Assembly: GCA_017885655.1 (NCBI GenBank)
Contig: JAFNFQ010000059.1
Location: forward strand, 1 to 33,571
Length of the DNA: 33,571 nucleotides
Reading direction: 5' to 3'
Source of the DNA: Methanobacteriota archaeon
GTDB taxonomy: Archaea > Thermoplasmatota > Thermoplasmata > RBG-16-68-12 > JAFNFQ01
Part shown: piece after piece, positions 5,883 to 31,997 of the stretch
How positions within the stretch are numbered: the first letter of the stretch is position 1
Layout: the number at the start of each line of letters is the position of its first letter
Position numbers and translations under genes: made by a program
Notes under the pieces: model-generated
Told to the model about the DNA's origin: nothing
The model's database searches: none
Seen by the model: only the letters and a program-made list of their open reading frames with translations

Positions 5883-6364
5883 TCAGCTCGCTATCCAGGC
5901 TTCGATCCTCTCCACGTCCTCTTTCAAACCCTTTTGGGTGGCCAGCGATTTGTCGGTCCATTTCTCCATGAAGTCTATCTCTTCTTGTATGCTCGGATCG
6001 GCCCGGGCGAGTTGTCTCATTATCGCGATGTTCCCTCGCCGCCACGATACGATGTCCTTCGCCATCAGCCGCTCCTTCGAATAGGGATTGCGCGCCACCG
6101 CCACGTCGGACTGCTCGACCCAGAGTTTGAGGACGATGTCATAGATGAGCCCCATGAGCAGGAATACTCCGATGACGATTAGGAAGAGTATCATCGTCCC
6201 GAGGAAATAGTCGCCTTGCCTCACGATTCCGAGGCTTACAAAGTGCTGGTGGAAGTAGTTCGGGTAGAAGACGCCGGCCAATGTCAGCCCCAGAAAAAGA
6301 GGCCGATTATCGCCTGGCTCTGCTGTATCCGCCACAGCTGCACCATGAATCCTTTCTTCACCAA
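5883..6364 (-). CDS. Two-TM protein with cytosolic helical tail, frameshifted (paralogue of 19425-19919)
   Basis: Family unknown to me. The C-terminal part is intact: a TM helix around GTMILFLIVIGVFLLMGLIY, then a charged helical tail with VEQSDVAVARNPYSKERL, IVSWRRGNIAIMRQLAR and EIDFMEKWTDKSLA. All of these match the paralogue at 19.4 kb closely. The N-terminal part (MVQLWRIQQSQAIIGLFFWG, ATG at 6346, or LVKK from a TTG at 6364) is in another frame and hits TGA at 6286-6284. One missing G in the C4 run at 6288-6291 (plus strand) explains this, because the paralogue reads VFWALTLAG straight through. It is either a real pseudogene or a homopolymer sequencing/assembly error. A GTG at 6335 in the downstream frame would give 150 residues but loses the conserved start. 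Confidence 0.72.
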
Positions 6365-9105: not shown

Positions 9106-9136
9106 TCTCGATAATGCCACGCATCGGAGATTGGCC

Positions 9137-12100
9137 ATGCATGGAACTCGGCTTGTCGCATCTTGTGTGTGTGTGCTCTTGGTTCTGACCGCATTCGCGT
9201 TTTCGACTTCCTCGAAAGGTGCGGAAGAGCCGATTATCAGCACAGTCGACCTGAAATTTTCTTCTCCCGCGATGGAGGTGACGCCAGCGCGCGATCCGCT
9301 GCTCGGCGACTTTGTCCGTGTCTCTGCCAACGTCGCTCTCGGCGGAGCGCAGAACTGGTCGAAGTACGGCATTGTCATGGATAAAGGGAACCCCGGAGAC
9401 CCGGATGACACTCAAGTGTCAGCGCCTTTCGTTCTGTTCATAAACGGCGAGTATAAGATGTGGTATGCCGGCGATCCAGGATCGTTCCCAACGACATATC
9501 TCATGTACGCCAACTCCACAGACGGCATCACATGGGTGAAGCATGGGATTGTCCTCAGTCCGCTTGGGTCCCAGGAGCGTCAGGTAATATATCCATGCGT
9601 CATGCTGGACGGGGCCACTTACAAGATGTGGTACAGCGGGTATGATGACACGAACTACAGGATATTCTACGCGACGTCCCCGGACGGACTCACGTGGACC
9701 AGGCAGGGATTGGTGCTCGACCTGGGTGCTCCTGGATCTCTGGATGATTACCTGGTCCTAGCTCCGTTTGTTTTGAAAGAAGGATCCGTGTATAAGATGT
9801 GGTACAACGGCCATGATGGCTCAAATTATCGATTGATGTATGTGGAGTCATCCGATGGCATCAATTGGGGGACACGACAACTAACTCTTGATGTGGGGCC
9901 GCCGGGTTCCGAGGAAAGTGGCGGCGTTTCATATCCTCACGTACTGAAAGAGAACGGAACATATCATCTCTGGTATACTGGCAATTCCGCATCCAAGGAT
10001 AGGATATTCTATGCTGTGTCTGCTGATGGCAAGAGCTGGTCTCGGGTGGGGAAAGTCGTGGACCTCGGTCCACTAGGCGGCGTCGAGGACAGGAACATAG
10101 GAATACAGCACATCCTGCACCTGCCCGGCAAACCTTATCAGATGTGGTATGCGGGAAGGGGGACTATCATGAGGATATTCTATGCCACGCTCGACTCCAA
10201 CGTCACATTGCCCCTCACCGCCAACGTCGATTTCTACCTGGACATTGTGTCACCCGGCAGCAAGATCGGGTCGGACACGATCCAGGTCAGCAAGTTGACT
10301 GGGGCGGTAGCTGAGATTGTCTGGCAGGCCACTCCAGCTGGAGGACATTCAATCCACGCCGTCATCGACGAGACAAACCTGGTGAGCGAGACAAACGAAT
10401 CTAACAATGAGGCATATATCGCGGTCAGGGTCTTGACGAACAGCCCACCGGTTGCCGATGCTGGCCCCGACCATAATGTGTTCAGGAACTCGATGGTCAT
10501 CCTGGACGGTTCAGCCACCTATGACCCGGAAGGTGACCCAATCACCTATCTATGGATCCAGATTGGCGGTCTGCCTATGCCCATGATAGGAGCCAACACC
10601 GCTACCCCGATGGTGCTCACTTATCTCTCTGGCGTCTATACATTCCTCCTTACCGCTCACGATGACCGTGGTGGAATCTCGACCGATATCACGAACGTGA
10701 CGGTGACGAATCGGCCTCCCGCCGCCGATGCCGGACCCGACATGAGCGTCGGCAAAAGGACGCTTGTGATTCTTGACGGATCTGGTTCTTTGGATCCGGA
10801 TTCCGATTTCCTTTCATACAATTGGGTTCAGACTGGGGGCGCTGCCGTGACACTCTACGGCAGTGATACACCGAATCCCACTTTCCTACCATTTACGGCC
10901 GGACTCCGCACTTTCGAATTGACTGTTGACGACGGAGATGGCGGCATCGACAACGACTCTGTCCAAGTGAATGTCACCAACCTCGACCCGGTCGCCAGCG
11001 CGGGACAGGACATAGTCGTCAGGAAAAACACATTCGTGACCCTTGACGGTACCGCCTCGAGCGATCCTGATGGGGACGTTCTTTCTTATTTGTGGATCCA
11101 GACCGAAGGACCAGGAGTGACTTTGTCTCGGTCAGATTCGGCGACCGCCACTTTCACGCCTTCTGCCGCTGCCATCTACATATTCAACCTCCTGGTCTCC
11201 GACGGCAGTGGCGGCACAGACTCCGATTCCGTCCAGGTGAACGCCACGAACACCGGCCCGGTGGCGAACGCGGGCATGGATTTCGCGGCGAGGAAGCGCT
11301 CCCCCGTCATCCTTGACGGCACAGGTTCATACGACCTGGATGGAGACGCCATCACGTTCCTTTGGATGCAAACAGGAGGTCCGCCGGTCATTCCAACTGG
11401 GATGGACACCGCCACGCCGACATTCACGCCATTGCGTGCGGGCCTGTATCAATTCCGTCTCAACGTCTCTGATACCGGTGGAGTGACCAGTACGGATTAC
11501 GTTGAAGTGAGCGTCACGAATTCGCTGCCAAGAGCGTATTCAGGTCTGGATTTCGATGCCAAGAAGAAGACTATTGTGACCTTGGACGGGAGCGGATCTT
11601 TCGATCCGGACTTGGAGGCGCTCACATACGCCTGGGCACGGATTGGCGGCCCGAGTGTGATAATCGTGGACGCGGACATGGCCGTCGCGACTTTCACCCC
11701 GCTGATGTCCGGTAGCTATCTCTTCGAGCTGACGGTGGGTGACGGCGACGGCGGCATATCCGTGGACAGCGTCCAAGTAACAGTCTTCAATACCGACCCC
11801 GTAGCCGACGCGGGCGTTGACCTGATCCGCAGGAAAGGTACTCAAGTGAGTCTTGACGGCGCTGCCTCCGCTGACAGCGACGGCGACTTCCTTTCCTTTG
11901 TCTGGACTCAGACGAGCGGCCCGATCGTCTCTTTGGCGGGAATGGACACCGACTCTCCCAGCTTCACACCAGCGTCCGTGGGAACGTACAGGTTCAGGCT
12001 GGCTGTGGACGATGGTGACGGCGGGACAGACACAGACGCGACAATCGTGGTCATCTACGGGATGACGCCAACCGCCAGACTGGCTGCAAGCGTGTCGATG

Positions 12101-12502
12101 GCGCAAGTGGGCTCATCGATAGGCTTCGACGCCGGCCTGTCATCCGATCCTGACGGTTCCATCGAGGTTTTCCAGTTTGAGTTCGGCGACGGGGCCGATG
12201 AGAGTACGAGCTCCCCGACGACAGCTCACACCTATTACGAACCGGGCACGTACACCGTGATGCTGACAGTTGTGGACGATGACGGGAACACCAGCACGAC
12301 GAGAGTGACCGTAAGAATCTCCGCCGCTCAGCATAATTTCCTCGCGGACACGTGGTGGCTGATTGCAATCATAGTGATACTAGCGGCAAACGTGGTATAC
12401 TTCGCTCTTGAGTGGCGGCGATGGAGGGGAAGGGCGGAGAAGAATGCCGAGCCGGAAGACGCTGAAGAAGAGCCACCGACCCGAAGAAACACGAACCGTT
12501 GA
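9137..12502 (+). CDS. Surface protein 1: five-bladed propeller, CARDB, seven PKD repeats, C-terminal TM anchor
   Basis: This is a secreted, membrane-anchored protein of 1121 residues. It has a signal peptide (1-29) and then five propeller blades, each marked by Y[KHQ][ML]WY motifs near residues 105, 164, 218, 275 and 333 and by SPDG/SADG..W turns. This resembles the GH43/DUF377-type five-blade fold, but I could not identify a catalytic triad. A CARDB-like domain (about 355-435) ends in ETNLVSETNESNNEAYI. Seven PKD/Ig-like repeats follow (about 436-1065), spaced exactly 90 residues apart. A TM helix (WWLIAIIVILAANVVYFALE) and a charged cytosolic tail close it. The ATG at 9137 is chosen over the TTG at 9131 because GGAGA sits 6 nt upstream. 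It is first of three tandem paralogues. The likely role is adhesion or glycan/polymer binding (inference). Confidence 0.88.
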   Translation: MHGTRLVASCVCVLLVLTAFAFSTSSKGAEEPIISTVDLKFSSPAMEVTPARDPLLGDFVRVSANVALGGAQNWSKYGIVMDKGNPGDPDDTQVSAPFVLFINGEYKMWYAGDPGSFPTTYLMYANSTDGITWVKHGIVLSPLGSQERQVIYPCVMLDGATYKMWYSGYDDTNYRIFYATSPDGLTWTRQGLVLDLGAPGSLDDYLVLAPFVLKEGSVYKMWYNGHDGSNYRLMYVESSDGINWGTRQLTLDVGPPGSEESGGVSYPHVLKENGTYHLWYTGNSASKDRIFYAVSADGKSWSRVGKVVDLGPLGGVEDRNIGIQHILHLPGKPYQMWYAGRGTIMRIFYATLDSNVTLPLTANVDFYLDIVSPGSKIGSDTIQVSKLTGAVAEIVWQATPAGGHSIHAVIDETNLVSETNESNNEAYIAVRVLTNSPPVADAGPDHNVFRNSMVILDGSATYDPEGDPITYLWIQIGGLPMPMIGANTATPMVLTYLSGVYTFLLTAHDDRGGISTDITNVTVTNRPPAADAGPDMSVGKRTLVILDGSGSLDPDSDFLSYNWVQTGGAAVTLYGSDTPNPTFLPFTAGLRTFELTVDDGDGGIDNDSVQVNVTNLDPVASAGQDIVVRKNTFVTLDGTASSDPDGDVLSYLWIQTEGPGVTLSRSDSATATFTPSAAAIYIFNLLVSDGSGGTDSDSVQVNATNTGPVANAGMDFAARKRSPVILDGTGSYDLDGDAITFLWMQTGGPPVIPTGMDTATPTFTPLRAGLYQFRLNVSDTGGVTSTDYVEVSVTNSLPRAYSGLDFDAKKKTIVTLDGSGSFDPDLEALTYAWARIGGPSVIIVDADMAVATFTPLMSGSYLFELTVGDGDGGISVDSVQVTVFNTDPVADAGVDLIRRKGTQVSLDGAASADSDGDFLSFVWTQTSGPIVSLAGMDTDSPSFTPASVGTYRFRLAVDDGDGGTDTDATIVVIYGMTPTARLAASVSMAQVGSSIGFDAGLSSDPDGSIEVFQFEFGDGADESTSSPTTAHTYYEPGTYTVMLTVVDDDGNTSTTRVTVRISAAQHNFLADTWWLIAIIVILAANVVYFALEWRRWRGRAEKNAEPEDAEEEPPTRRNTNR
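10445..12334 (+). repeat. Seven PKD-type units with exact 270-nt period
   Basis: The units begin with versions of PPVADAGPD. The codon after the proline lies at 10451, 10721, 10991, 11261, 11531, 11801 and 12071, which is 270 nt apart every time. The first six carry LDGSGSxDPDGD, a Y.W.QTGG segment and a DDGDGG.D.D closing loop; the seventh is a classical PKD with FEFGDG and TVVDDDG. The protein repeats are clear, while the DNA has drifted enough to mix codon choices. Confidence 0.85.
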
Positions 12503-12570: not shown

Positions 12571-15500
12571 TTGGGGGAACTGGATACGCTGAGGAACTGT
12601 CTTGTGATTCCGCTTCTGTGCGCTCTGCTGATGCTATCGCCATTGTCACGATTGGACGGGCCGACGGCACTTCCTCGACCGATTGTGAGTACTGTGGACC
12701 TGCGATTCGCCTCGCCGAGCCTTCAGATCGATCCGCCGGGGAATCCTTTTTCCGGTGACACGGTGACCTTGCGAGCGAAGGTCCAGCTAGTTGTGAACCA
12801 GACATGGACAAAGCACGGAGTAGTGCTGGACAAGGGCGGTTCCGACCCGCACGAAAGTCAACAGGTGAACTCGCCGTATGTTCTATACGAGGGGGGTGTT
12901 TACAGGATGTGGTACGCCGCGACTGATGGGTCGAGCATCACATGGATCATGTATGCCACATCAGCTGACGGTGTAACCTGGACGAAGCATGGCACTGTTT
13001 TCAGCCCCGGTCCGCTTGGAGAGGAAGAGCAGGTGATTTACCAATGCGTCCTGAGAGACGGGTCAACCTACAAGATGTGGTACAGCGGATATGACGGGAG
13101 CAACTACAGGATATTCTATGCCACCTCGCCCGACGGGCTCGCTTGGAGCAGACAAGGGATGGTCATGGACCTAGGTCCTCCTGGTTCGCCAGACGACTAC
13201 TACGTCTTCGACCCATTCGTCATCAAGGAGGGAGCTCTCTACAGGATGTGGTACAACGGTAACGATGGAGTTCACAACCGAATCATGTACACCGAGTCTA
13301 ACGACGGCTTCAGTTGGGGAACTCGGACTATCTCCCTCGATCTCGGACCGCCGGGTTCTCAGGAATACATGCACGTGTCGTATGCGCATGTCCTTCCCGA
13401 GGGAGGAGGGTATCATCTGTGGTATACGGGGAAAGACGCCAGCATCGACCGGATTTACTATGCGATCTCTTCTGACGGTAAAACGTGGACGCGCGTGGGC
13501 AGGGTTCTGGACGTTGGCCCTGCAGGCGGGACCGAAGACACGAACATCGGTGTGCAATTCGTCATGCATTTGCCGGGCAAACCCTACCAGATGTGGTACG
13601 CAGGGCGTGGCGGCTTCCCGAACATGAAGATCCACTACGCGACCATGGATCCCATTGCGCTCCCGCTCCAAGCAGGGGTGGGATTTTGCCTTGACAGCAT
13701 CGCGTCGGCGAACCTGATCGGTCTCGACACAATCCAGATTGACGGCTCCGCGAATATAGAGGCGGATGTGTCGTGGACAGCTGGTCCGCGAGGGCCGCAC
13801 AGGATATACGCGGTCATTGACCCATCGAACAACGTCACGGAAACGGACGAAACGAACAACATCGCGTTCATCGACATCGTGGTGCTCAATCATCCGCCAA
13901 TCGCCGAGGCTGACGGCCCCTACTCCGCGTTCGAAGGGGGGCAGGTCATCCTTGATGGAAGCGGATCATACGACATCGACAACGACACCCTGCTGTATCG
14001 ATGGGACTTCACGAACGACGGAGTCATGGACACACCCTGGCGCTCCAATCCAAAATACTCTCAAGTCTACGGGGACGATTTCGTCGGTCAGGCCGCTCTG
14101 TACGTGAACGACAGCTTCGATGTCAGCATGGACACGGCGAACGTGACTATCTCGAACGTCTTGCCTTCAGGGAATCTAAGAATAATCTCGGCACAGCACG
14201 AAGGGTCGCAGATTCAGTTCGCCGCGAATGTCACCGATCCGGGTAGCGACGACATCTTTCTGAAATGGACATGGGGCGTTGGGTCCCCTGACGAGTTCTC
14301 AACCTACTACAACAACGGCATTGGACCCGACCCATACCCGTCTCCCGATGTGAATCCTGTCAATCTCGATGACTTCAAGAGCCATGCATACGGGGACAAC
14401 GGGGCCTTCACTGTCACCGTCTTCATAACAGACGACGACAGCGGGAGCCAGGGCACGACACTCACAATCACCGCCACGCCTGACAACCTCCCGCCATCGG
14501 TCTCGGTCTCCGGCGGGATGGTCATCGACGAGGGTCAGTCAGTCTCGCTAACCGCCACCGCCAAGGATCCTGGAAGCGACGACCTGACGTTCGACTGGTC
14601 ATGGGGCGAGGGCTCGACAGAGTCGCGCAACTACTACAACAACGGCGTGGGTCCGGACCCGCCGAACAGCCCTGGCGGGACATGGCCGTTCACCGCCACA
14701 GACTCCGCCACTCACCCGTACGGAGACAACGGCATCTACGCAATCACGTTGAAAGTCATCGACGACGATGGCGGTTTCACAACCTGGACTGGCCAGCTCG
14801 TCGTGAACAACCTCCCGCCGACGATCGCGCCGTTCGGGCCATTCGCAATCGACGAGGGCGGTCCATTGGAGGTGAATACTACCGCCAACGACCCGGGGAG
14901 CGACGACCTGACGTTCGAGTGGTCTTTCGAGCTCTGTCCGGTCATGGTGAACATCTACTACAACGACGGAGTCGGTCCAGACCCGCCACAGAGCCCGGAC
15001 GGGACATACCCGTTCACGGCTCTCGATAGCGTCGAGCACACCTACGGGGACAACGCAGTCTTCACGATCACGCTGACAGTGACCGACGACGATGGCGGTT
15101 CCGCCACCTACACGACCAACATCACCGTCTCCAACCTCCCGCCATCGATTGCACCGTTCGGCCCCTTCGAACTGAACGAGGCCGATCCGCTCACGGTCGG
15201 CACGAACGCCGTGGATCCGGGCAGCGATGACCTGACGTTCACCTGGAGCTTCGATTACGGTCCGACAATCCCGCATGTCTTCTACAATGATGGGGTTGGA
15301 CCTGACCCACCGAAGAGCCCCGACGGGGTCTTCCCGTTCACCGTCGACGACTCCGCCTCTCACACATACGGAGACAACGGAATCTTCAGAATCGCGCTGA
15401 CCGTCGAGGACGACGACGGCGGCATCGCCACGTACGAGACCGTGGTCACCGTGCACAACGTCCCGCCAACGATCGTCGAGGCGAAGGTGTTCATGCTCGC

Positions 15501-16125
15501 AGACATCACGATCAGAGTGGCGGGTGAGAAGTGGCATGACGTCATCCTCAAGCTCTACGAGGACGGACGGGAGGTCGGATGGGCGCAGGTCATCAGGTAC
15601 CCCGGCAGCCCGAACGACCAGATGGCCACCCTGCACGACGTCGAGATAACGCTCGACATGGGCTTCTCCGCGGTCGCGTACTACACGCCCGACGACGACC
15701 CGATCAACGGGCAGCCGAACGGGGCGAACCCCGCCTGGCTCATCATCGGCTGGGAGAACGGCATGGAGACGAGGCTGCACCACACCTTCAACGTCCAGCA
15801 CCCTGACACATGGGTCTGGACTGTGGACAACCCCCACATCTACGCGGTCGACCAGAGGATACACTTCAGGGCGACCGCAACGGATCCCGGGAGCGACGAC
15901 CTGACGTTCACCTGGGACACCGGTGACGGGAGGACACTGACTGGCGTCTACTACAACAACGGGGTCAGCCCGGACCCGTACCCGAGCCCCGAGGTGAAGC
16001 CGATCATCGCCACCGACGAGCAGGTCGTGGTCTATGCTATCACAGGGACGTACACGATTGCCTTGACGGTCACGGATGACGATGGAGGAATGGCGTCCAT
16101 CTCATTCACAATCTCAGTGGGCTAG
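12571..16125 (+). CDS. Surface protein 2: five-bladed propeller, CARDB, PKD variants with inserts, no TM anchor
   Basis: This is a secreted protein of 1184 residues. It has a signal peptide (LVIPLLCALLMLSPLS), five propeller blades with [YR]MWY-type motifs near 110, 166, 223, 280 and 338, and a CARDB-like domain (about 367-440) ending in VTETDETNNIAFI. One regular PKD (about 442-530) is followed by four longer PKD variants (about 531-965). These open with DPGSDDLTF and carry an inserted YYNxGVGPDP..SP loop. A domain I do not recognise lies at about 966-1090, and a final DPGSDDLTF unit closes the protein at SISFTISVG. There is no C-terminal TM helix, unlike both neighbours, so it may be released or held by partners. 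The start is uncertain: TTG 12571 gives a charged n-region, while GTG 12604 has GAGGA 8 nt upstream. Confidence 0.85.
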   Translation: MGELDTLRNCLVIPLLCALLMLSPLSRLDGPTALPRPIVSTVDLRFASPSLQIDPPGNPFSGDTVTLRAKVQLVVNQTWTKHGVVLDKGGSDPHESQQVNSPYVLYEGGVYRMWYAATDGSSITWIMYATSADGVTWTKHGTVFSPGPLGEEEQVIYQCVLRDGSTYKMWYSGYDGSNYRIFYATSPDGLAWSRQGMVMDLGPPGSPDDYYVFDPFVIKEGALYRMWYNGNDGVHNRIMYTESNDGFSWGTRTISLDLGPPGSQEYMHVSYAHVLPEGGGYHLWYTGKDASIDRIYYAISSDGKTWTRVGRVLDVGPAGGTEDTNIGVQFVMHLPGKPYQMWYAGRGGFPNMKIHYATMDPIALPLQAGVGFCLDSIASANLIGLDTIQIDGSANIEADVSWTAGPRGPHRIYAVIDPSNNVTETDETNNIAFIDIVVLNHPPIAEADGPYSAFEGGQVILDGSGSYDIDNDTLLYRWDFTNDGVMDTPWRSNPKYSQVYGDDFVGQAALYVNDSFDVSMDTANVTISNVLPSGNLRIISAQHEGSQIQFAANVTDPGSDDIFLKWTWGVGSPDEFSTYYNNGIGPDPYPSPDVNPVNLDDFKSHAYGDNGAFTVTVFITDDDSGSQGTTLTITATPDNLPPSVSVSGGMVIDEGQSVSLTATAKDPGSDDLTFDWSWGEGSTESRNYYNNGVGPDPPNSPGGTWPFTATDSATHPYGDNGIYAITLKVIDDDGGFTTWTGQLVVNNLPPTIAPFGPFAIDEGGPLEVNTTANDPGSDDLTFEWSFELCPVMVNIYYNDGVGPDPPQSPDGTYPFTALDSVEHTYGDNAVFTITLTVTDDDGGSATYTTNITVSNLPPSIAPFGPFELNEADPLTVGTNAVDPGSDDLTFTWSFDYGPTIPHVFYNDGVGPDPPKSPDGVFPFTVDDSASHTYGDNGIFRIALTVEDDDGGIATYETVVTVHNVPPTIVEAKVFMLADITIRVAGEKWHDVILKLYEDGREVGWAQVIRYPGSPNDQMATLHDVEITLDMGFSAVAYYTPDDDPINGQPNGANPAWLIIGWENGMETRLHHTFNVQHPDTWVWTVDNPHIYAVDQRIHFRATATDPGSDDLTFTWDTGDGRTLTGVYYNNGVSPDPYPSPEVKPIIATDEQVVVYAITGTYTIALTVTDDDGGMASISFTISVG
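14165..15470 (+). repeat. Four tandem long PKD variants (about 324-330 nt each)
   Basis: The GAT of DPGSDD sits at 14236, 14566, 14890 and 15214, giving steps of 330, 324 and 324 nt; a fifth copy is at 15883 after a foreign domain. Relative to the 90-residue PKD, each unit holds about 18 extra residues containing YYNNGVGPDP-type sequence. The conserved cores are also similar at DNA level, which points to internal duplication. Confidence 0.8.
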
Positions 16126-16249: not shown

Positions 16250-18784
16250 ATGTGCAAAGAAGGTCGGCGTCTGATATCTGTATCATTCATTCTTGCCATG
16301 TTGCTTGTTTCAACTGCTGCTGTCACAGCAATCGAGCCAGAGCCGATAGTGAGCCTCGCTGACCTGCACTTCGTCGCTCCGAATCTTGAAGTCCTGCCGA
16401 CGGGGAGCCCAGTCGAAGGCGACACGGTTCAGATTGTCGGCCATGTCCAAGCGAGCGGAAAGCAGGTCTGGACGAAGATGGGGGTCGTCCTCGACAGAGG
16501 ATTACCCGGTGAGCAAGACAGCCACGAACTCGGTGCCCCGACGGTGATCTACGATGCCGGCGAGTACAAGATGTGGTATGCGGGAACCACCGGCGGCATG
16601 ACCGGGTCGATACTGTATGCCACCTCGCCCGACGGCGTGCTCTGGACGAAACATGGCGCTGTTCTCGATCCGGGCCCGTCCCCGGAGAATGTCAATGTCC
16701 ACTATCCTTGCGTGATGAAAGATGGCGCTGTTTACAAAATGTGGTACAGCGCGTACGATGGCTCTTCATACAGGATATTCTATGCTACCTCGCCAGACGG
16801 ATTGACCTGGAGTCGCCAGGGACTTGTACTTGACATCGGCCCGTCGGGATCTTACGATGACGATTTCGCGTACGGCCCTTTCGTGCTGAAGGAGGGCGGC
16901 TCCTTCAGGATGTGGTATTCCGGGAGTGACGGTGCCAACGTCCGGCTCCTTTATGCCACATCTCCTGACGGAGTGGCCTGGACGAAGCAGGGAGTCAGCC
17001 TGAACCTGGGCCCTCCGGGTTCGCTCGAGAACGTGCACGTCTCGCCCAGCTACATCCTCAGGGAAGGCGGCGGATACCACATGTGGTATCGGGGGAGCGA
17101 CGGCACCTACGACAGGATTCTCTACGCGACCTCGTCTGATGGCCTGTCCTGGACGCGGCGGGGATTGGCGGTCGATGTCGGTCCGCCGGGCAGCACCGAC
17201 GGCACGCATGTTCTCCTCCAATCGGTCCTCCATCTGCCAGGGATGCCCTACCAGATGTGGTATTCAGGGCGGGGGGAATTCGCCGTGTACGACAGGATCC
17301 ATTACGCGTACATGACTTCGATCATGATGCCCGTGACGACGGAGGTCGATTTCTACCTCGATGCGATCGGACCGTCGAGCAAGATCGGAACGTACACAGC
17401 TCAGTTCAGTTCATTGTCTCCATCGATTGCTCTCGTTGACTGGGTCGCAGGACCACCCGGAATGCGGACGATCTACGCGGTAATCGACCCCCTGAACAGG
17501 ATATCGGAGACGGATGAGATCAACAACATGGCCAACATCAGCATCTTCGTGAGAGGGCCGCCGATGCCCGACTATGTGCCGACCTCGCCGGTGCCGGCGC
17601 CTCCCTTGAAGGTGGGGCTATCCATGCCCGTCCAGCTCTCGATCCGCGTCGCCAACTTGGGCAGCGGGAACGCGAGCGCGGACTCCGTTTTGGCATTCCG
17701 CGACGAGGCGGGCAATACTCTCTCCACATTCACTGTGCCTCCATTGGAGATGGGCGCCGTCTCAACGGCGATGATGGCGACTTGGATGTCACCTGCGGTT
17801 CCCGGGACCTATCTCGTCTTCGCGGAGGCTGACAGCAACAACGACCTCGCGGAGAACAACGAGACCAACAATGTCTACTCCTGGACGATCTACGTCGTCC
17901 CCGGACCGATTACCTCCCTCAGGATAGGCCTTCCGAAGTACGAGGCCAGCGTCACATACGTCAGGTCATTCTCTCTGCTCGCTTTCTTTGCCCTAGATCC
18001 CGGTGGGAGCGGCATCCGCAACACGACGTTCAGGACAGATGGCGGCGACTGGTTGAACTACACCGCCATCGGCCATTTCTCGCTGTCGGGCGACGGCGGG
18101 CATCTGGTCGAATGGTACTCTATCGACTTCGCGGGGAACAAAGAGAACATCTCGTCGCAGACGGTCTGGGTCGACGACACCCCGCCGACGACCACAATCA
18201 CACCGCAAACCGGACCATATGATGAGAACACGTGGTTCGACCTCACAGCCACGGACTCCGGCTGCGGCGTCGCGGCCATGGAGTACAAGATGGACTCAGA
18301 GCAGTGGAGATCCTATGACGGCAATTTCACGGTGCAAGCCGGACTCCATACGATCTGGTACAGGTCCACGGACAACATAGGCAACAGGGAGACGCCGAAG
18401 AGCCGCGAGGTGAATGTCGAGTCGGAACGCCCGCCGGACATCGTTGCGGGCACGAACTACAAGCCTATGGTCGCGACCGTGTTCACAATCGCCCTCCTGG
18501 TGGCGGGATTCTTGTCATCGAGGAGGAGACCTTGGAAGAACCGAAAGGACAGGGTGGCAATACTCCAGGCATTCTGTGCCCACTCGCTGCCATTCGCGAC
18601 GGCCGAGGCCGTGACCGGGCTGCTGTCTCTGGCGACCGGGGTCCTCTCAATCCCACCCGTGCTCGGACTCGGGACCGCCGTGGATGTGAGCATCCTGTCG
18701 GTCGGACTTGCCGTGGCCATTCTAGACGTGGCTGGTAGGAAGCAGAAGGGGCCTCCCCCGGGGTCGCAGGACAGCAAAGGTTAG
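16250..18784 (+). CDS. Surface protein 3: five-bladed propeller, two CARDB domains, Ig-like/OmpL47-like repeats, three-TM C-terminal module
   Basis: This product is 844 residues long. A basic n-region and signal helix (LISVSFILAMLLVSTAAVTA) precede five propeller blades with MWY motifs near 105, 161, 218, 275 and 333. Two CARDB-like domains follow (about 363-433 and 440-550), ending in ETDEINNMANI and ENNETNNVYSW. Then come Ig-like segments similar to OmpL47 repeats (VEWYSIDFAGNKE, IWYRSTDNIGNRE). From NYKP at about 735 there is a TM helix, a basic loop SSRRRPWKNRKDR and two more TM helices. This C-terminal module is nearly the same in the protein at 28692-31997. I set the start at the ATG at 16250 because GGAGGAGG lies just upstream and TATA-like TTATATC at 16210; the longer frame from 16076 overlaps gene 2. 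Confidence 0.87.
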   Translation: MCKEGRRLISVSFILAMLLVSTAAVTAIEPEPIVSLADLHFVAPNLEVLPTGSPVEGDTVQIVGHVQASGKQVWTKMGVVLDRGLPGEQDSHELGAPTVIYDAGEYKMWYAGTTGGMTGSILYATSPDGVLWTKHGAVLDPGPSPENVNVHYPCVMKDGAVYKMWYSAYDGSSYRIFYATSPDGLTWSRQGLVLDIGPSGSYDDDFAYGPFVLKEGGSFRMWYSGSDGANVRLLYATSPDGVAWTKQGVSLNLGPPGSLENVHVSPSYILREGGGYHMWYRGSDGTYDRILYATSSDGLSWTRRGLAVDVGPPGSTDGTHVLLQSVLHLPGMPYQMWYSGRGEFAVYDRIHYAYMTSIMMPVTTEVDFYLDAIGPSSKIGTYTAQFSSLSPSIALVDWVAGPPGMRTIYAVIDPLNRISETDEINNMANISIFVRGPPMPDYVPTSPVPAPPLKVGLSMPVQLSIRVANLGSGNASADSVLAFRDEAGNTLSTFTVPPLEMGAVSTAMMATWMSPAVPGTYLVFAEADSNNDLAENNETNNVYSWTIYVVPGPITSLRIGLPKYEASVTYVRSFSLLAFFALDPGGSGIRNTTFRTDGGDWLNYTAIGHFSLSGDGGHLVEWYSIDFAGNKENISSQTVWVDDTPPTTTITPQTGPYDENTWFDLTATDSGCGVAAMEYKMDSEQWRSYDGNFTVQAGLHTIWYRSTDNIGNRETPKSREVNVESERPPDIVAGTNYKPMVATVFTIALLVAGFLSSRRRPWKNRKDRVAILQAFCAHSLPFATAEAVTGLLSLATGVLSIPPVLGLGTAVDVSILSVGLAVAILDVAGRKQKGPPPGSQDSKG

Positions 18785-19424: not shown

Positions 19425-19919
19425 CTAGCCCATGACCCACTTTTCCAGGCCCTCGACGCTCGCTCTGAGATCAGGTCGTTCCGCGAGGGACTTGGCGATC
19501 CACTTCTCCATGAACTCTATGTCTTTCTGGATTGCACTGTCCGTCTTTGCGAGTTCCTTCATGATGGACACGTTGAAGCGCGTCCACTGCACGATTTCCT
19601 TCGGCTGCATTCGTTCAACCGAATACGGGTTGCGCTCGACCGCAACGTCCGTCTGCTCTCTCCAGAGCTTCAGGGATCTGTCGTAGATTAACCCCATGAG
19701 CAGAATCACGACGACAATGATGAAGAACAGATATGTTGTTCCGATGAGATTGTTCGTCTGGTTGTCCACATCTGGAACAAGTCCCAATCTGATGAAGAAG
19801 GCCCTGAAATAGTTGTAGTAGAAGACTCCGGCGAGAGTCAGCGCCCAGAAGACCAGGCTTATCAGGGCTTGACTCTGCTGTATCCGCCATATCTGAACCA
19901 TCAGGTATTTCTTGACCAA
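19425..19919 (-). CDS. Two-TM protein with cytosolic helical tail (intact paralogue of 5883-6364)
   Basis: Family unknown to me. From the MVQ methionine (ATG at 19901) the protein has 158 residues. TM1 is around ALISLVFWALTLAGVFYYNY and TM2 around TTYLFFIIVVVILLMGLIYD. A charged helical tail follows with LWREQTDVAVERNPYSVERM, VQWTRFNVSIMKELAK and DIEFMEKWIAKSLA. The paralogue at 5.9-6.4 kb shares most of these residues but is frameshifted. I extended the start to the TTG at 19919 because LVKK just before MVQ is also conserved in the paralogue; the ATG is the cautious alternative. The frame remains open to 20201, but that part is a transposase relic and contains the promoter block, so it is not part of this gene. 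Confidence 0.78.
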   Translation of the reverse strand: MVKKYLMVQIWRIQQSQALISLVFWALTLAGVFYYNYFRAFFIRLGLVPDVDNQTNNLIGTTYLFFIIVVVILLMGLIYDRSLKLWREQTDVAVERNPYSVERMQPKEIVQWTRFNVSIMKELAKTDSAIQKDIEFMEKWIAKSLAERPDLRASVEGLEKWVMG

Positions 19920-19952
19920 GTAGACCGCCTCGCCCCCGCGAAGATGAAGAGG

Positions 19953-19971
19953 GATATTAGTATGTGTCGTC
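19953..19971 (-). promoter_or_regulatory. Conserved promoter block (copy 2), identical to 6399-6417
   Basis: It has the same 19 bases as at 6399-6417, and the same spacing of about 56 bp to the MVQ start codon. It also marks the boundary between the real gene and the transposase relic upstream. Confidence 0.6.
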
Positions 19972-20440: not shown

Positions 20441-20716
20441 ATGGAGTCTCAAGGGGTGAGGAAAGCGATAACAACTGTTGCAGCCGTTTCTTCAGCAGCG
20501 TTAGCCTCCCCTGTAGTCGTGGCAGGCCTCGGCGCGGCCGCAGTGATATGCCTCATCCTCATGCTCATCATGAAGGAGTTGAGCACGGCGGAACTGGAGA
20601 GCGGCAAGCCGCGCCCAAGGCTGAAGTTCTTCGCTTCGTGCCTCAACACCGCGATAGCCCCTCTACTCCTTGTTTTCGTTGTGATAGTCGCGGTCAAGGT
20701 CTGGCAAGTCCTCTAG
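20441..20716 (+). CDS. Small two-TM membrane protein of unknown function
   Basis: The 91-residue protein has two hydrophobic helices (around SPVVVAGLGAAAVICLILML and TAIAPLLLVFVVIVAVKVWQ) joined by a charged loop ESGKPRPRLK. I do not recognise a family. The ATG at 20441 is chosen because GGATAAAC about 33 bp upstream may be the TATA box. An in-frame GTG at 20432 or a later GTG at 20456, downstream of CTTAAGTA, are alternatives. Its stop overlaps the stop of the convergent CPBP protease gene by 4 bp. Confidence 0.68.
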   Translation: MESQGVRKAITTVAAVSSAALASPVVVAGLGAAAVICLILMLIMKELSTAELESGKPRPRLKFFASCLNTAIAPLLLVFVVIVAVKVWQVL

Positions 20717-21543
20717 AGGTGGCCCGGGGCCACCAGGTACAGCACCACGTTCACCAGGGTGTGTGCCACCATTACGCCCGCGAGGCTGCGGGTCCTTTGG
20801 ACGGCGATTCCAAACAACAACCCGACCAAGAAGACGAAGGCCAGGTCAGCCGCCGAGAGGAACCCTATGTGGAGCGATGTGAAAACCAACGTCACATAAA
20901 GAAGACCTGAGTTCCTCCCGAGGAAATCGCTCGCGGACCGCAGCATGATTCCCCTGAATATCAGCTCCTCAGAAACGCCCGTGCCCAATGCGAGGGCGAC
21001 CACGGCGAACAATATGCTGCCGGTGCTGAAGTTGGTGAGCCATGGATTCGGACGGAGGATGAAGTACTCGACCACCCCCAGCGGTATGCCGAGCAGGCCG
21101 ATCACGACCTGCCACGGGAGCTTCCTCAGTGGGCCAAGCGCGAGGCAGACGTCCCGACGTTTGAGTTGCAGTGTCCTCATCACCGCGAGACACGACGCGA
21201 TCAGCGGCACGCTCATGATGCCGAGCCACTGCAGCGTGGTGAATGGCCAGAGGGGGACGGAGAGGCTCAGCACTCTGAGCAACGGGCCAAGCGTCAAGCT
21301 CAGGAGGAGACGAGAAAGGGTGGCGTTCTTCGTCCAAGTCGCCGAAGACTGAAAGATGAGCGCGAAGAGAAGGAGCATGTGAACCGCGAGACCCGCCTCG
21401 TATCTGCCAGAGGCAGAGAGCAGTTCCCCGGTCGTCATCGCAGCCAGGTAGAGAAGGAGCGTTGCGATCACTGTGCGAGAGGGCGAGGGACTGGGTGCAG
21501 GACCGCCCTTTGCCTTCCCTGCGTCAACCTCGACCCGCGCCAT
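20713..21543 (-). CDS. CPBP family intramembrane glutamic/metallo-protease (CAAX protease-like)
   Basis: This polytopic membrane protein of 276 residues has the ABI/CPBP signature: EE at 192-193 with R197 (SEELIFRG), H225 (TSLHIG) and H261 with N265 (AHTLVN). Members cleave substrates within the membrane or near CAAX-type ends, and several archaeal ones are linked to membrane-protein maturation; this substrate is unknown. There are about seven to eight hydrophobic helices. The ATG at 21543 is preferred because AGAGG lies 6 nt upstream; the frame continues to a more distal start at 21597 that adds a basic, unconserved-looking stretch. A TATA-like AAATATG lies about 36 bp before 21543. It is divergent from the DUF1616 gene. 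Confidence 0.88.
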   Translation of the reverse strand: MARVEVDAGKAKGGPAPSPSPSRTVIATLLLYLAAMTTGELLSASGRYEAGLAVHMLLLFALIFQSSATWTKNATLSRLLLSLTLGPLLRVLSLSVPLWPFTTLQWLGIMSVPLIASCLAVMRTLQLKRRDVCLALGPLRKLPWQVVIGLLGIPLGVVEYFILRPNPWLTNFSTGSILFAVVALALGTGVSEELIFRGIMLRSASDFLGRNSGLLYVTLVFTSLHIGFLSAADLAFVFLVGLLFGIAVQRTRSLAGVMVAHTLVNVVLYLVAPGHL

Positions 21544-21659
21544 GCACGCCTCTCTGTTGCGGGCTGAATGGCCACGGACATATTTCCTTTTCTGCATTCA
21601 GGCGTCGTCGTTGTCTGGAAAAACATTATTAAGGCGACCAGTCAATTGCGTCGGGGAAG

Positions 21660-28691: not shown

Positions 28692-31600
28692 ATGAGGACG
28701 CTTGGGCGTGCCAGTGAACGACGGATGATAATCGCGGCAGTAATTGTCCTGACTCTTTCGGCTTTCATCCAGCCGCAGATCCTCTGCCCGACCTCCCGCT
28801 CCCCGGGAATCCCGTCCCTGAATCCGCCCGACGGTCTCGCTTCAGGCACGCTCGCCTATGCGACCTTCCTCGGTGGATTCTCTATGGATATCGGCTGGGG
28901 CATTGCGGTGGATGCGTCGGGGTCCGCGTATGTGACGGGCAGAACCACTTCCCCAGACTTCCCCGTCACCCCTGGGGCGTTCCAAACCGCGTATGGCGGG
29001 CAGGGGGACGCCTTCGTCGCGAAGCTGAGCCCTGATGGCTCTCAGGTCGTGTGGGCGACTTTCCTTGGCGGGTCTGGGGGCGAGGGTGCGGGTTCGGTCG
29101 CAGTCGACTCTTCCAACAACGTCTATGTCGCGGGCGCGACGGGATCGCTGGACTTCCCCACGACCGCCGGAGCGTTCGACCAAACAGCGAACGGAAGGAC
29201 GGACGCCTTCGTCGCGATGCTGAGCCCCGACGGCTCTCAGCTCCTATGGAGCACCTACCTTGGCGGCGCGGACAATGAAGACACCGACGCCTTGGCAATC
29301 GGCGGCTCGGGCAACGTGTACGTCACGGGCTCCACGACTTCACCAGACTTCCCCGTCACTCCGGGCGCCTTCGACGAAACTTGCGGCACCGACGGGACCT
29401 GCAACTGGGACGGGATGGTGAACCACGACGACGTGTTCGTCACGGAAATCAGCCCCGACGGGCACTCGCTCGTGTGGTCCACGTTTCTCGGCGCCGAAGA
29501 TCTGGATCATCCCTGGACCATAGTCGTAGACGCTGCAGGATTCCCCGTCATAGCGGGCATCACATCGTCGACGGGGTTTCCGGCGACCCCCGGCGCCTTC
29601 CAATCCACGTTCCGAGGAGGAAGAAGCGACGCGTTCATCGCAAAGCTGAGCCCGGATGGCAGCACGCTCGCGTGGGCGACGTTTCTCGGAGGGAGCGGTT
29701 CAGACGGCGGGTTCGTCACCCTCGACGCGGCGGGGGCAATCGCCATATGTGGCGGCACCGATTCCTTGGATTTCCCAGTGACGCCGGGCGCCTATCAGAC
29801 CACGCTCGGGGGCGATATGGACGCGTTCGTCGGGAAGATGAGTTCCGACGGGAGAACGCTGGTCTGGGCGACCTACCTCGGGGGGACTGAAAAGGATAGC
29901 TGCGATGCGGTGTCGGACGGTTCCGGGGCAATCCATGTCACTGGCTTCACGAACTCCTCCGACTTCCCTGTCACGCCCGACGCGTTCGACTCCTCGTACA
30001 ACGGCGGCGTAAACGACGCCTTCGTCGCGCAGTTGGATTCCACGGGGAGCAGGCTCATCTACGCCACATTCCTGGGCGGGATTGGCGAGGATGGCGCGGA
30101 CCACGCGGTGCTTGACGCCTCCGGGGACGTCTACGTGAGCGGTCGGACGAACTCGCCCGACTTCCCCGCGACGCCGGGGGCGTTCGACACGAGTTTCAAC
30201 GGCCTGCGGGACGCCTACGTGGTGAAATCCGTGGTGACGGCTCGGGTCAACACGCCACCCGCTTTGTCCTGGACCGGTGAGCCGAGCTACGTCGCGGACG
30301 GGTTGGACCCGGAGGCGGGCACGAATCGCACGACCTTCTCCTATAAGGTCGCCTATGCCGATGCCGACGGCGATCCACCGACGCAAATCAAGGTGAAGAT
30401 CGAGAAGCCCCTCGGCACACCGTGGGGGACGTTCCCGATGGCCTTCGCCGGGTGGGTCGGGGCACCGAACGACTACGCCGCGGGCGCGATCTACATGTTC
30501 TCCACGACGCTCCCCGCAGGCACGGACTTCTGGTATTCCTTCCGCGCCACGGACGGCTGGGACTGGGCGACAGGGCCGCCCACGATTCCAATCGATGCTC
30601 CGGACGTGGTCGCGGATAATCCCCCGGTCGCTTTGGCGCAAGCCTCGCCGACAGTCGCGCACATGGGCGACGTGATCACGTTCGATGCAACAGGTTCGAC
30701 TGACGACTTCGGCATCGTTGCGTACCAGTGGGACTTCGGCGACGGGGCGAACGACTCGAACTCCGTGATTACGCACACCTACGCGTCCCGCGGCACATTC
30801 ATCGCGACCCTGACGGTGTGGGATGCTTCGAACCAGAATGACACGGACACCGTGTCAGTCTTAATCGAAAACCGACCGCCGAACGCGAACGCAGGCCCCG
30901 ACCAGACGGTCACGAAGAAGACGCAGGTCACCCTCGACGGCACGGGCTCCTCGGATTCCGACGGCGACTCCCTGACGTATGCGTGGATGCAGACTGGCGG
31001 TTCCGTCGTGGCCTTACTTGGCGCGAACACCCCGACTCCAACGTTCACGCCGCCGACGAGCGGGATCTACACGTTCCAGCTGACGGTTGATGATGGAAAC
31101 GGCGGTGTGGCGGCGGACACGGTCGAGGTGACAGCGACGAACACGCCGCCCGTGGCCGAAGCGGGACCGGATCAGACGGCGCGGAAGAACACCCTCGTCG
31201 CGTTGGATGGCTCGCGCTCTTCTGACTCTGATGGCGACATTCTGACATTCACTTGGGCGCAGATCTCCGGACCTGCCGTGACTCTTACCGACGCAGGCAC
31301 CGACACCCCGACGTTCACGCCAGCGAGAGTGGGGACGTACGCTTTCCGCCTGACCATCGATGATGGCGACGGGGGAACATCCGAGGACGCTGTGTCCGTC
31401 ACGGTCTGGGGTCTCCCGCCGATCGCTAGCTTGGTGGCGAGGCCTCCGAGCGCAGAGGTCGGTGCGCAGATTGAGTTCGACGCCAGTGGTTCCGCGGATC
31501 CCGACGGCACCATCGTGGACTTCGCATTCCTGTTCAGCGACGACGCATCGATGAGCGGTTCCACTGCGGTGCGAAATCACTCTTATGCTGCCCCTGGCTC

Positions 31601-31997
31601 GTACGTGGTCACGCTGACCGTGACGGATGACGACGGGAACGTGAGCACTGCGAGCGTGACTGTCGAGATCACTTCGATACCGCCATCGGCCGAAGCGAAT
31701 TACAAACCACTGGTGGCGGTGATCTTCGCAATCATCCTGCTCTTAGCGGGAGTCTGGTCGTCGAGAAAGAAGCCCTGGAAGGGCGGGAAGGACGGGATGG
31801 CGGTTGCGAAGACTTTCATGATCTCGTCCATGCCTTTCATCCTGGCAGAAGCCGTCACGGGAGTCGTGTCTCTCCTCACAGGAATCCTGTCGATACCGCC
31901 AATCATTGGGTTCGGCACCGCCATCGACCTGGTCGTCCTTGTCGCGGGACTGGTGATGGGCGCCCACGGGATACTCAAGAGCCCCGGAGCCCGGTAG
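28692..31997 (+). CDS. Surface protein: seven-bladed SBBP propeller, PKD repeats, three-TM C-terminal module
   Basis: This product is 1101 residues. A signal peptide (MIIAAVIVLTLSAFIQPQIL) leads into seven SBBP repeats (about 52-520), each with W[AS]T[FY]LGG, a GS.YVTG..S.DFP turn and a TPGAF..DAFVAKLSPDG stretch: one closed seven-bladed beta-propeller. A domain of about 115 residues follows (SYKVAYADADGDPPTQIKVK to the DGWDWATG region). Four PKD units start near 643, 726, 816 and 906, the last three exactly 90 residues apart. At about 1002 NYKP begins a TM helix, a basic loop (SSRKKPWKGGKDG) and two more TM helices, the module shared with the gene at 16250-18784. A TATA-like CATTAAGTA lies about 75 bp upstream and GGGGCGGGGCG precedes the ATG. 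The ligand is unknown. Confidence 0.88.
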   Translation: MRTLGRASERRMIIAAVIVLTLSAFIQPQILCPTSRSPGIPSLNPPDGLASGTLAYATFLGGFSMDIGWGIAVDASGSAYVTGRTTSPDFPVTPGAFQTAYGGQGDAFVAKLSPDGSQVVWATFLGGSGGEGAGSVAVDSSNNVYVAGATGSLDFPTTAGAFDQTANGRTDAFVAMLSPDGSQLLWSTYLGGADNEDTDALAIGGSGNVYVTGSTTSPDFPVTPGAFDETCGTDGTCNWDGMVNHDDVFVTEISPDGHSLVWSTFLGAEDLDHPWTIVVDAAGFPVIAGITSSTGFPATPGAFQSTFRGGRSDAFIAKLSPDGSTLAWATFLGGSGSDGGFVTLDAAGAIAICGGTDSLDFPVTPGAYQTTLGGDMDAFVGKMSSDGRTLVWATYLGGTEKDSCDAVSDGSGAIHVTGFTNSSDFPVTPDAFDSSYNGGVNDAFVAQLDSTGSRLIYATFLGGIGEDGADHAVLDASGDVYVSGRTNSPDFPATPGAFDTSFNGLRDAYVVKSVVTARVNTPPALSWTGEPSYVADGLDPEAGTNRTTFSYKVAYADADGDPPTQIKVKIEKPLGTPWGTFPMAFAGWVGAPNDYAAGAIYMFSTTLPAGTDFWYSFRATDGWDWATGPPTIPIDAPDVVADNPPVALAQASPTVAHMGDVITFDATGSTDDFGIVAYQWDFGDGANDSNSVITHTYASRGTFIATLTVWDASNQNDTDTVSVLIENRPPNANAGPDQTVTKKTQVTLDGTGSSDSDGDSLTYAWMQTGGSVVALLGANTPTPTFTPPTSGIYTFQLTVDDGNGGVAADTVEVTATNTPPVAEAGPDQTARKNTLVALDGSRSSDSDGDILTFTWAQISGPAVTLTDAGTDTPTFTPARVGTYAFRLTIDDGDGGTSEDAVSVTVWGLPPIASLVARPPSAEVGAQIEFDASGSADPDGTIVDFAFLFSDDASMSGSTAVRNHSYAAPGSYVVTLTVTDDDGNVSTASVTVEITSIPPSAEANYKPLVAVIFAIILLLAGVWSSRKKPWKGGKDGMAVAKTFMISSMPFILAEAVTGVVSLLTGILSIPPIIGFGTAIDLVVLVAGLVMGAHGILKSPGAR
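28840..30240 (+). repeat. Seven SBBP propeller repeats
   Basis: There are seven copies of about 55-70 codons with the motif [YW][AS]T[FY]LG[GA], SPDFPVTPGAF and DAFVAKLSPDG. Copy 4 (from about 29470) is the most divergent (WSTFLGAEDLDHP), and copy 3 carries a 12-residue Cys-containing insertion (CGTDGTCNWDG) that is unusual in a secreted propeller. Confidence 0.82.
30870..31680 (+). repeat. Three PKD units with exact 270-nt period
   Basis: The codon after the leading prolines falls at 30882, 31152 and 31422, the same 270-nt step as in the gene at 9137-12502. The units resemble that gene's (VTKKTQVTLDGTGSSDSDGD, WMQTGG, DDGNGG). This suggests one domain cassette spread between genes. Confidence 0.75.

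Follow-up and report, generated by a model that had tools for sequence, protein, structure and literature searches.

The window, the whole 33,571-nucleotide stretch analysed here, is contig C59 of a 2.54 Mb genome in 86 contigs (G000; G, C and L numbers denote genomes, contigs and loci). It encodes proteins A to D (Table 1), of which C and D both end in a tail of three transmembrane (TM) helices. In a single pairwise comparison, these two tails align without gaps over 87 residues at 55% identity and 76% positives (E=4e-36), and they have in common the motifs SSRRRPWK (C) or SSRKKPWK (D), AEAVTG, SIPP, and GLGTAVD or GFGTAID. An earlier, sequence-only reading had proposed a close match of the two protein ends, and every motif that it named is present; the NYKP of protein C is also there, but starts at 18455 rather than 18456. 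By BLAST the similarity reaches only ~38 residues upstream of NYKP, and the proposal that the extracellular parts are unrelated holds by family, C carrying CARDB and a BNR-like propeller and D carrying SBBP and PKD domains.

Comparison with the neighbouring paralogues shows these parts in other combinations. Proteins A, B, and C have ~450 N-terminal residues in common (C matches A and B at 49-52%) but differ at the other end, where A has a single TM, B has none, and C has the NYKP tail. Similarly, A and D have a PKD array in common (47% over 347 residues) and differ in their anchors. Because the N-terminal domain and the PKD array are each shared across different C-termini, anchor and ectodomain are independent modules. 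Paralogue B, having no C-terminal TM, may be truncated, may be secreted as it stands, or may depend on another protein to hold it.

Table 1. Surface-protein genes of the window and the parts of their C-terminal tails (window positions)
Feature	Position	Strand	Remarks
Paralogue A	9131..12502	+	For comparison; N-terminal propeller as in C, PKD array like that of D, single-TM C-terminus
Paralogue B	12571..16125	+	For comparison; N-terminal propeller as in A and C, C-terminal TM absent
Surface protein C	16250..18784	+	Start probably at 16250 (the ORF opens at 16076); signal peptide, BNR-like propeller, CARDB, Ig-like region, three-TM tail
Three-TM tail of C	18455..18784	+	NYKP to stop codon
Half 1 of C tail	18455..18517	+	NYKP and TM1, tail residues 1-21
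Basic linker of C tail	18518..18562	+	SRRRPWKNRKDRVAI, residues 22-36, predicted cytosolic
Half 2 of C tail	18563..18727	+	TM2, SIPP loop, and TM3 (hairpin), residues 37-91
Surface protein D	28692..31997	+	SBBP propeller, PKD array, three-TM tail
Three-TM tail of D	31698..31997	+	NYKP to stop codon
Identical tract in D tail	31713..31799	+	Same 87 bp as in the C68 tail (L010), a sign of gene conversion

Anatomy and topology of the tail

Across 30 diverse copies, N1, P4, E51 (in TM2), G55, S58, P68, G73, and G84 are invariant in an alignment whose mean column identity is 38%. An obligatory salt bridge between K3 and E51 can be rejected, because two copies read NWTP while keeping E51. The linker after TM1 averages 5.3 Lys and Arg residues, and the TM2-TM3 loop, at 0.2, is nearly uncharged. 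By the positive-inside rule, the ectodomain would lie outside, the linker inside, the SIPP loop outside, and the C-terminus inside, a topology that would place both NxKP and the SIPP loop on the outer face. AlphaFold2 models the tail as three helices with moderate confidence (pLDDT 77.6, pTM 0.50).

No established family accounts for this arrangement. For the moderate-confidence model, Foldseek returned no PDB fold match (best E 1.8), and hmmsearch found no sequence relative of the tail in the PDB (best E 0.21). A Pfam scan of 18 tails gave no consistent family, with best E-values of 0.0025-0.0038 distributed over several unrelated TM families and no match at all for tail member 1. Among NCBIfam models, no C-terminal signal (LPXTG, PEP-CTERM, GlyGly-CTERM, MYXO-CTERM, or others) exceeded its cut-off in the 18 tails; the weak matches were scattered and inconsistent (best E 0.0037-0.0055), including Rumino_NPXTG at 0.0044 in four members. 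TIGR04126 (PGF-CTERM) matched none of the 18 tails and exceeded its cut-off nowhere in the genome. The tail family is thus unnamed: Pfam, NCBIfam, and the PDB hold no existing domain that covers it, and no account of a tail like this turned up in a search of the open-access literature.

A repeated tail with many ectodomains

Searches with a tail profile separated members cleanly from background, leaving nothing between E 6e-4 and 0.66 among 3700 ORFs and no match below 1e-3 in a reversed-sequence control of 3700 ORFs. In the window's own genome, 28 match rows represent 27 tail loci, comprising 18 full tails, seven partial ones, one interrupted where its contig stops, and one with a long linker (on C7). 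With 27 loci in one genome, homologues beyond its own family and in a second order, and a clean reversed control, the likeness first noticed between C and D lies far beyond chance.

Among the full tails examined, from this genome and its relatives, 35 of 35 are C-terminal, with at most 45 residues (median 7) after the match. Their ectodomains include DUF7948 with SBBP, SBBP with PKD, CARDB, FG-GAP, NosD/beta-helix with PKD, and Ig-like types, while BNR, LTD, and VWA domains occur together in the long-linker C7 protein and in one tail protein of G129. Judged by eye, signal-peptide-like stretches open the complete tail ORFs. The view of the sequence-only reading, that a polytopic C-terminal anchor matching no named sorting signal is common to unrelated surface proteins, has therefore stood up in C-terminal position, variety of ectodomains, and absence of a model match. 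No conserved gene neighbour was seen at the compact-tail loci.

The tails of this genome also bear the marks of recombination. The tract common to the D and C68 tails spans tail nucleotides 16-102, which encode TM1 and the linker; a tract of this kind arose in none of 500 shuffles, and it is flanked by unrelated DNA upstream and more diverged DNA downstream. Other tail pairs display smaller mosaics. The seven partial tails start at tail residues 9-31, with no ectodomain-coding DNA running into them, and sit in short frames on contigs C67 (two), C26, C18, C27, C6, and C78; two of the seven contain in-frame stops. Their 5' ends fall in the same segment as the 87-bp tract. Third codon positions hold an excess of the differences among intact tails (a share of 0.48-0.57), against 0.42-0.45 in most partial tails. 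Together, mosaics and partial copies fit recombination within the tail followed by decay of the leftovers.

Among relatives, the tail was matched in 16 of 300 genomes of the class, 14 of them among the 37 of the order (own genome included) and two in another order; copy numbers per genome are to be read as "at least". A phylum sample of 390 genomes added only two weak matches (G334 and G416, E ~3e-5), both discarded because they resemble FtsX/MacB-like permeases on inspection by eye. Clear matches in named archaeal records number three, all in metagenome-assembled genomes labelled Thermoplasmata, Methanomassiliicoccales, or "Euryarchaeota". A WOR-3 match (L077) was dropped, as it spans only 22 residues and is not significant with the profile.

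Split and long-linker forms

Variants of the tail divide it between TM1 and TM2. Copies in G000 (C7), G014, G035, G117, G129, and G144 have a longer cytosolic linker at this point, and at five loci in four genomes of genera g3 and g7 (G025 twice, G053, G076, and G159) the tail is split into two genes. The first ORF, a surface protein, ends in N[YWH]KP, TM1, and a ..KRPL.MARKK stretch, with an acidic tail beyond. The second ORF starts directly after the stop codon of the first or overlaps it (TGATG, TGAATG, or TGAGTG), and the pair is apparently translationally coupled. In the ~150-residue product of the second ORF, a C4HC3 zinc finger is joined through a short basic linker to a homologue of the TM2-TM3 hairpin. 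One split-form genome is assembled into a single contig, and the junction turns up in different assemblies, which makes an assembly error unlikely. This count leaves out G026, where the sequence is masked upstream of the hairpin ORF, and G015, a form carrying zinc ribbons that was rejected as a split locus because both frames share a Pro-rich repeat and one chain with an indel is likelier.

Profile comparison relates both halves to the compact tail. The compact hairpin matches the split subunit at an hhalign probability of 95.9% (E 6e-9), and the compact NxKP-TM1 segment matches the end of the first ORF at 97% (E 1e-10); the split subunit, too, has an invariant Glu in TM2 and, seven residues on, an invariant Ser. 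The finger has invariant ligands C10, C13, C26, C29, H34, C37, C44, and C47, in C4HC3 order. It matches Pfam Prok-RING_1 at E 1.1e-6, where its 28.9 bits fall just below the cut-off of 29.1, and its model gives a Foldseek probability of 1.00 against RING-H2 fingers, with 1iym and 5ulk among the matches, though at E-values of only 0.02-0.04. As judged from ligand order and modelled fold, the finger is a treble clef of the RING/PHD type.

Fused and split genes can also be connected through their ectodomains. The fused long-linker proteins of G014 and G035 (genus g2) are 31-32% identical to split first ORFs (G025 C43, G053, G076, and G159) over an ectodomain of ~570-650 residues (E 1e-46 to 1e-60), and the hairpins of the fused and split proteins are 39% identical over 80 residues (E 4e-8). 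With ectodomains and hairpins both homologous, these genes form one family, with the hairpin supplied in cis in one genus while two others supply it in trans. On the usual gene-fusion argument, such a pair predicts that TM1 and the hairpin bind one another.

The sequence-only reading had offered a docking site for a membrane partner as one function of the tail. That idea survives in modified form: the TM2-TM3 hairpin occurs as a separate gene beside NxKP-TM1 proteins, so that the tail seems to contain its own partner, and no third-party membrane partner was found. Free-standing occurrence, which that reading had named as a refutation, is seen in part, for the hairpin half only, the full three-TM tail being C-terminal. 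RING-bearing loci L167-L181 were rejected as split partners, as they have no hairpin. In G144 and G035, other surface proteins (L169:1127-3334 and L173:932-3103) carry a RING-like finger behind a single C-terminal TM.

A proposed two-part membrane anchor

We consider that the tail is probably a dedicated and transferable membrane anchor at the C-terminus, built from two halves that interact. The first, NxKP and TM1, would stop the secreted ectodomain from being translocated further, NxKP lying on the outer face and the basic RRPW stretch inside. The second would be the TM2-TM3 hairpin, whose TM2 carries the invariant Glu and whose outer loop has the conserved pattern SIPP..G.GT.(D/N). This hairpin may pack against TM1 to form a compact three-helix unit that stays unprocessed and in which E51 may play a role. 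In some relatives, the second half would be a separate subunit, encoded by the abutting gene and equipped with a cytosolic RING/PHD-type finger that might recruit something cytosolic, and the compact tail would be the cis-fused form of this complex of TM1 and hairpin. In the window's own genome, the tails would make up a repeated family that trades DNA by gene conversion and has been joined to many ectodomains. Several observations count against an anchor of two halves. Only two genera have the split form, and compact tails lack its zinc finger, so that either form may be ancestral. The AlphaFold2 model is of moderate confidence and resembles no PDB fold, and the K3-E51 salt bridge is not obligatory. 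In addition, a protease sorting signal could look much the same, with an invariant NxKP on the outer side of a TM and basic residues after it.

A wider interpretation, which we put forward tentatively and would not yet favour, is that of a new kind of archaeal system for anchoring surface proteins, a two-part intramembrane complex in which the surface protein would carry an NxKP-TM1 plug that fits an acidic socket of two helices. This socket could be a membrane protein of its own with a RING finger, or could be fused in cis, and the fused form may have spread through the genome as a cassette, serving as a recombination platform for the exchange of ectodomains.

By what means many uncultured Thermoplasmata anchor their large adhesin-like proteins is, to our knowledge, unclear. 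With the tail profile, as many as two dozen or so surface proteins can be annotated in a genome, the natural fusion/fission pair predicts a physical interaction of TM1 with the hairpin, and an archaeal RING/PHD-type finger is coupled to surface proteins.

Competing explanations

The foremost alternative holds that NxKP, TM1, and the basic stretch form a tripartite signal for an archaeosortase or intramembrane protease, cut near NxKP and followed by lipid attachment, with TM2-TM3 as an appendage. A layout of motif, TM, and basic residues has been described for sortase-type signals (PMC11980579), and NxKP-TM-RRPW shares it. Furthermore, the genome encodes an archaeosortase A (ArtA) above cut-off and no PGF-CTERM protein above cut-off, leaving the enzyme without recognisable substrates. 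Within the order, ArtA and tail are both present in nine genomes, with five having the tail only, two ArtA only, and 21 neither (Fisher p 0.0006). That association is gone (p 1.0), however, once genus g5, which lacks both, is set aside, and G025, G053, and G097 have intact tails and no ArtA, genus g3 being one of tails without ArtA. An ArtC-like enzyme occurs order-wide, tail-less genomes included (p 0.17), and an exclusive archaeosortase partner is accordingly unsupported; archaeosortases, examined as co-occurring membrane proteins, do not co-vary specifically with the tail. No NCBIfam C-terminal signal model recognises the tail, the hairpin is conserved at least as well as the NxKP half, and split genes place a long acidic tail after TM1, unlike known signals. 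No specific support for archaeosortase processing of the tail emerged, and we regard this account as possible but unlikely.

Archaeosortase A lies at G000:C67:14118-14846 (L118), and in four genomes its neighbour is a surface protein whose C-terminal domain is cytosolic. The ArtC-like archaeosortase (G000:C8:71834-73072, L153) carries a C-terminal RING-like zinc finger, and its gene adjoins one resembling phosphoribosyl-pyrophosphate synthetase. In G025 and G097, the ArtC-like gene is followed by a membrane protein gene related to two window ORFs (5886-6335 and 19428-19964, both on the minus strand), which are copies of an unnamed membrane protein family with an RNPYS motif. Near the tail genes, the window also encodes a CPBP/Rce1-like intramembrane protease (20716-21597, minus strand), which shows no sign of a link to the tails.

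Transmembrane coupling or signalling, in which ligand binding by the ectodomain would be relayed through the three-TM unit to cytosolic domains (RING/PHD finger, zinc ribbons, or a C-terminal domain), is a rather improbable alternative. The invariance of E51 in TM2 and of all eight ligands of the split-subunit C4HC3 finger would suit such a role, as would the zinc ribbons of the G015 form and the ~175-residue cytosolic domain that follows TM3 in the C7 copy. Yet almost every copy has only the basic linker and a short tail inside, nothing that could receive a signal. The C7 copy itself is at L099:1660-2700 (minus strand), and its cytosolic domain (P0001) found no NCBIfam or Pfam match. Lastly, an ordinary hydrophobic tail made similar by recent duplication and gene conversion within one genome would explain the conversion tracts, near-identical paralogues, and decayed copies, but is already contradicted by conservation outside the genome, with identical invariant residues in other families and another order, a split operon conserved across two genera, and third-position enrichment of differences among intact copies, and is scarcely credible.

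Comparison with known systems

In the system of PGF-CTERM and archaeosortase A (TIGR04126/TIGR04125), as with the tail, many unrelated surface proteins of archaea have a C-terminal TM with basic residues after it; PGF-CTERM, however, has one TM with PGF, whereas the tail has NxKP and three TMs, matches no model, and occurs without ArtA. The MYXO-CTERM tag likewise ends dozens of surface proteins per genome, and its sortase in Myxococcus is a CPBP protease (PMC11980579), but it has an invariant Cys and one TM, and a conserved CPBP neighbour was not seen at the other tail loci. Prokaryotic RING finger family 1 (PF14446) is like the C4HC3 finger of the split hairpin subunit, a likeness limited to that extra domain and not extending to the tail itself. 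Ordinary single-TM C-terminal anchors, such as that of paralogue A, likewise hold an ectodomain in the membrane; unlike them, the tail described here has three TMs, invariant residues, and both split and fused forms.
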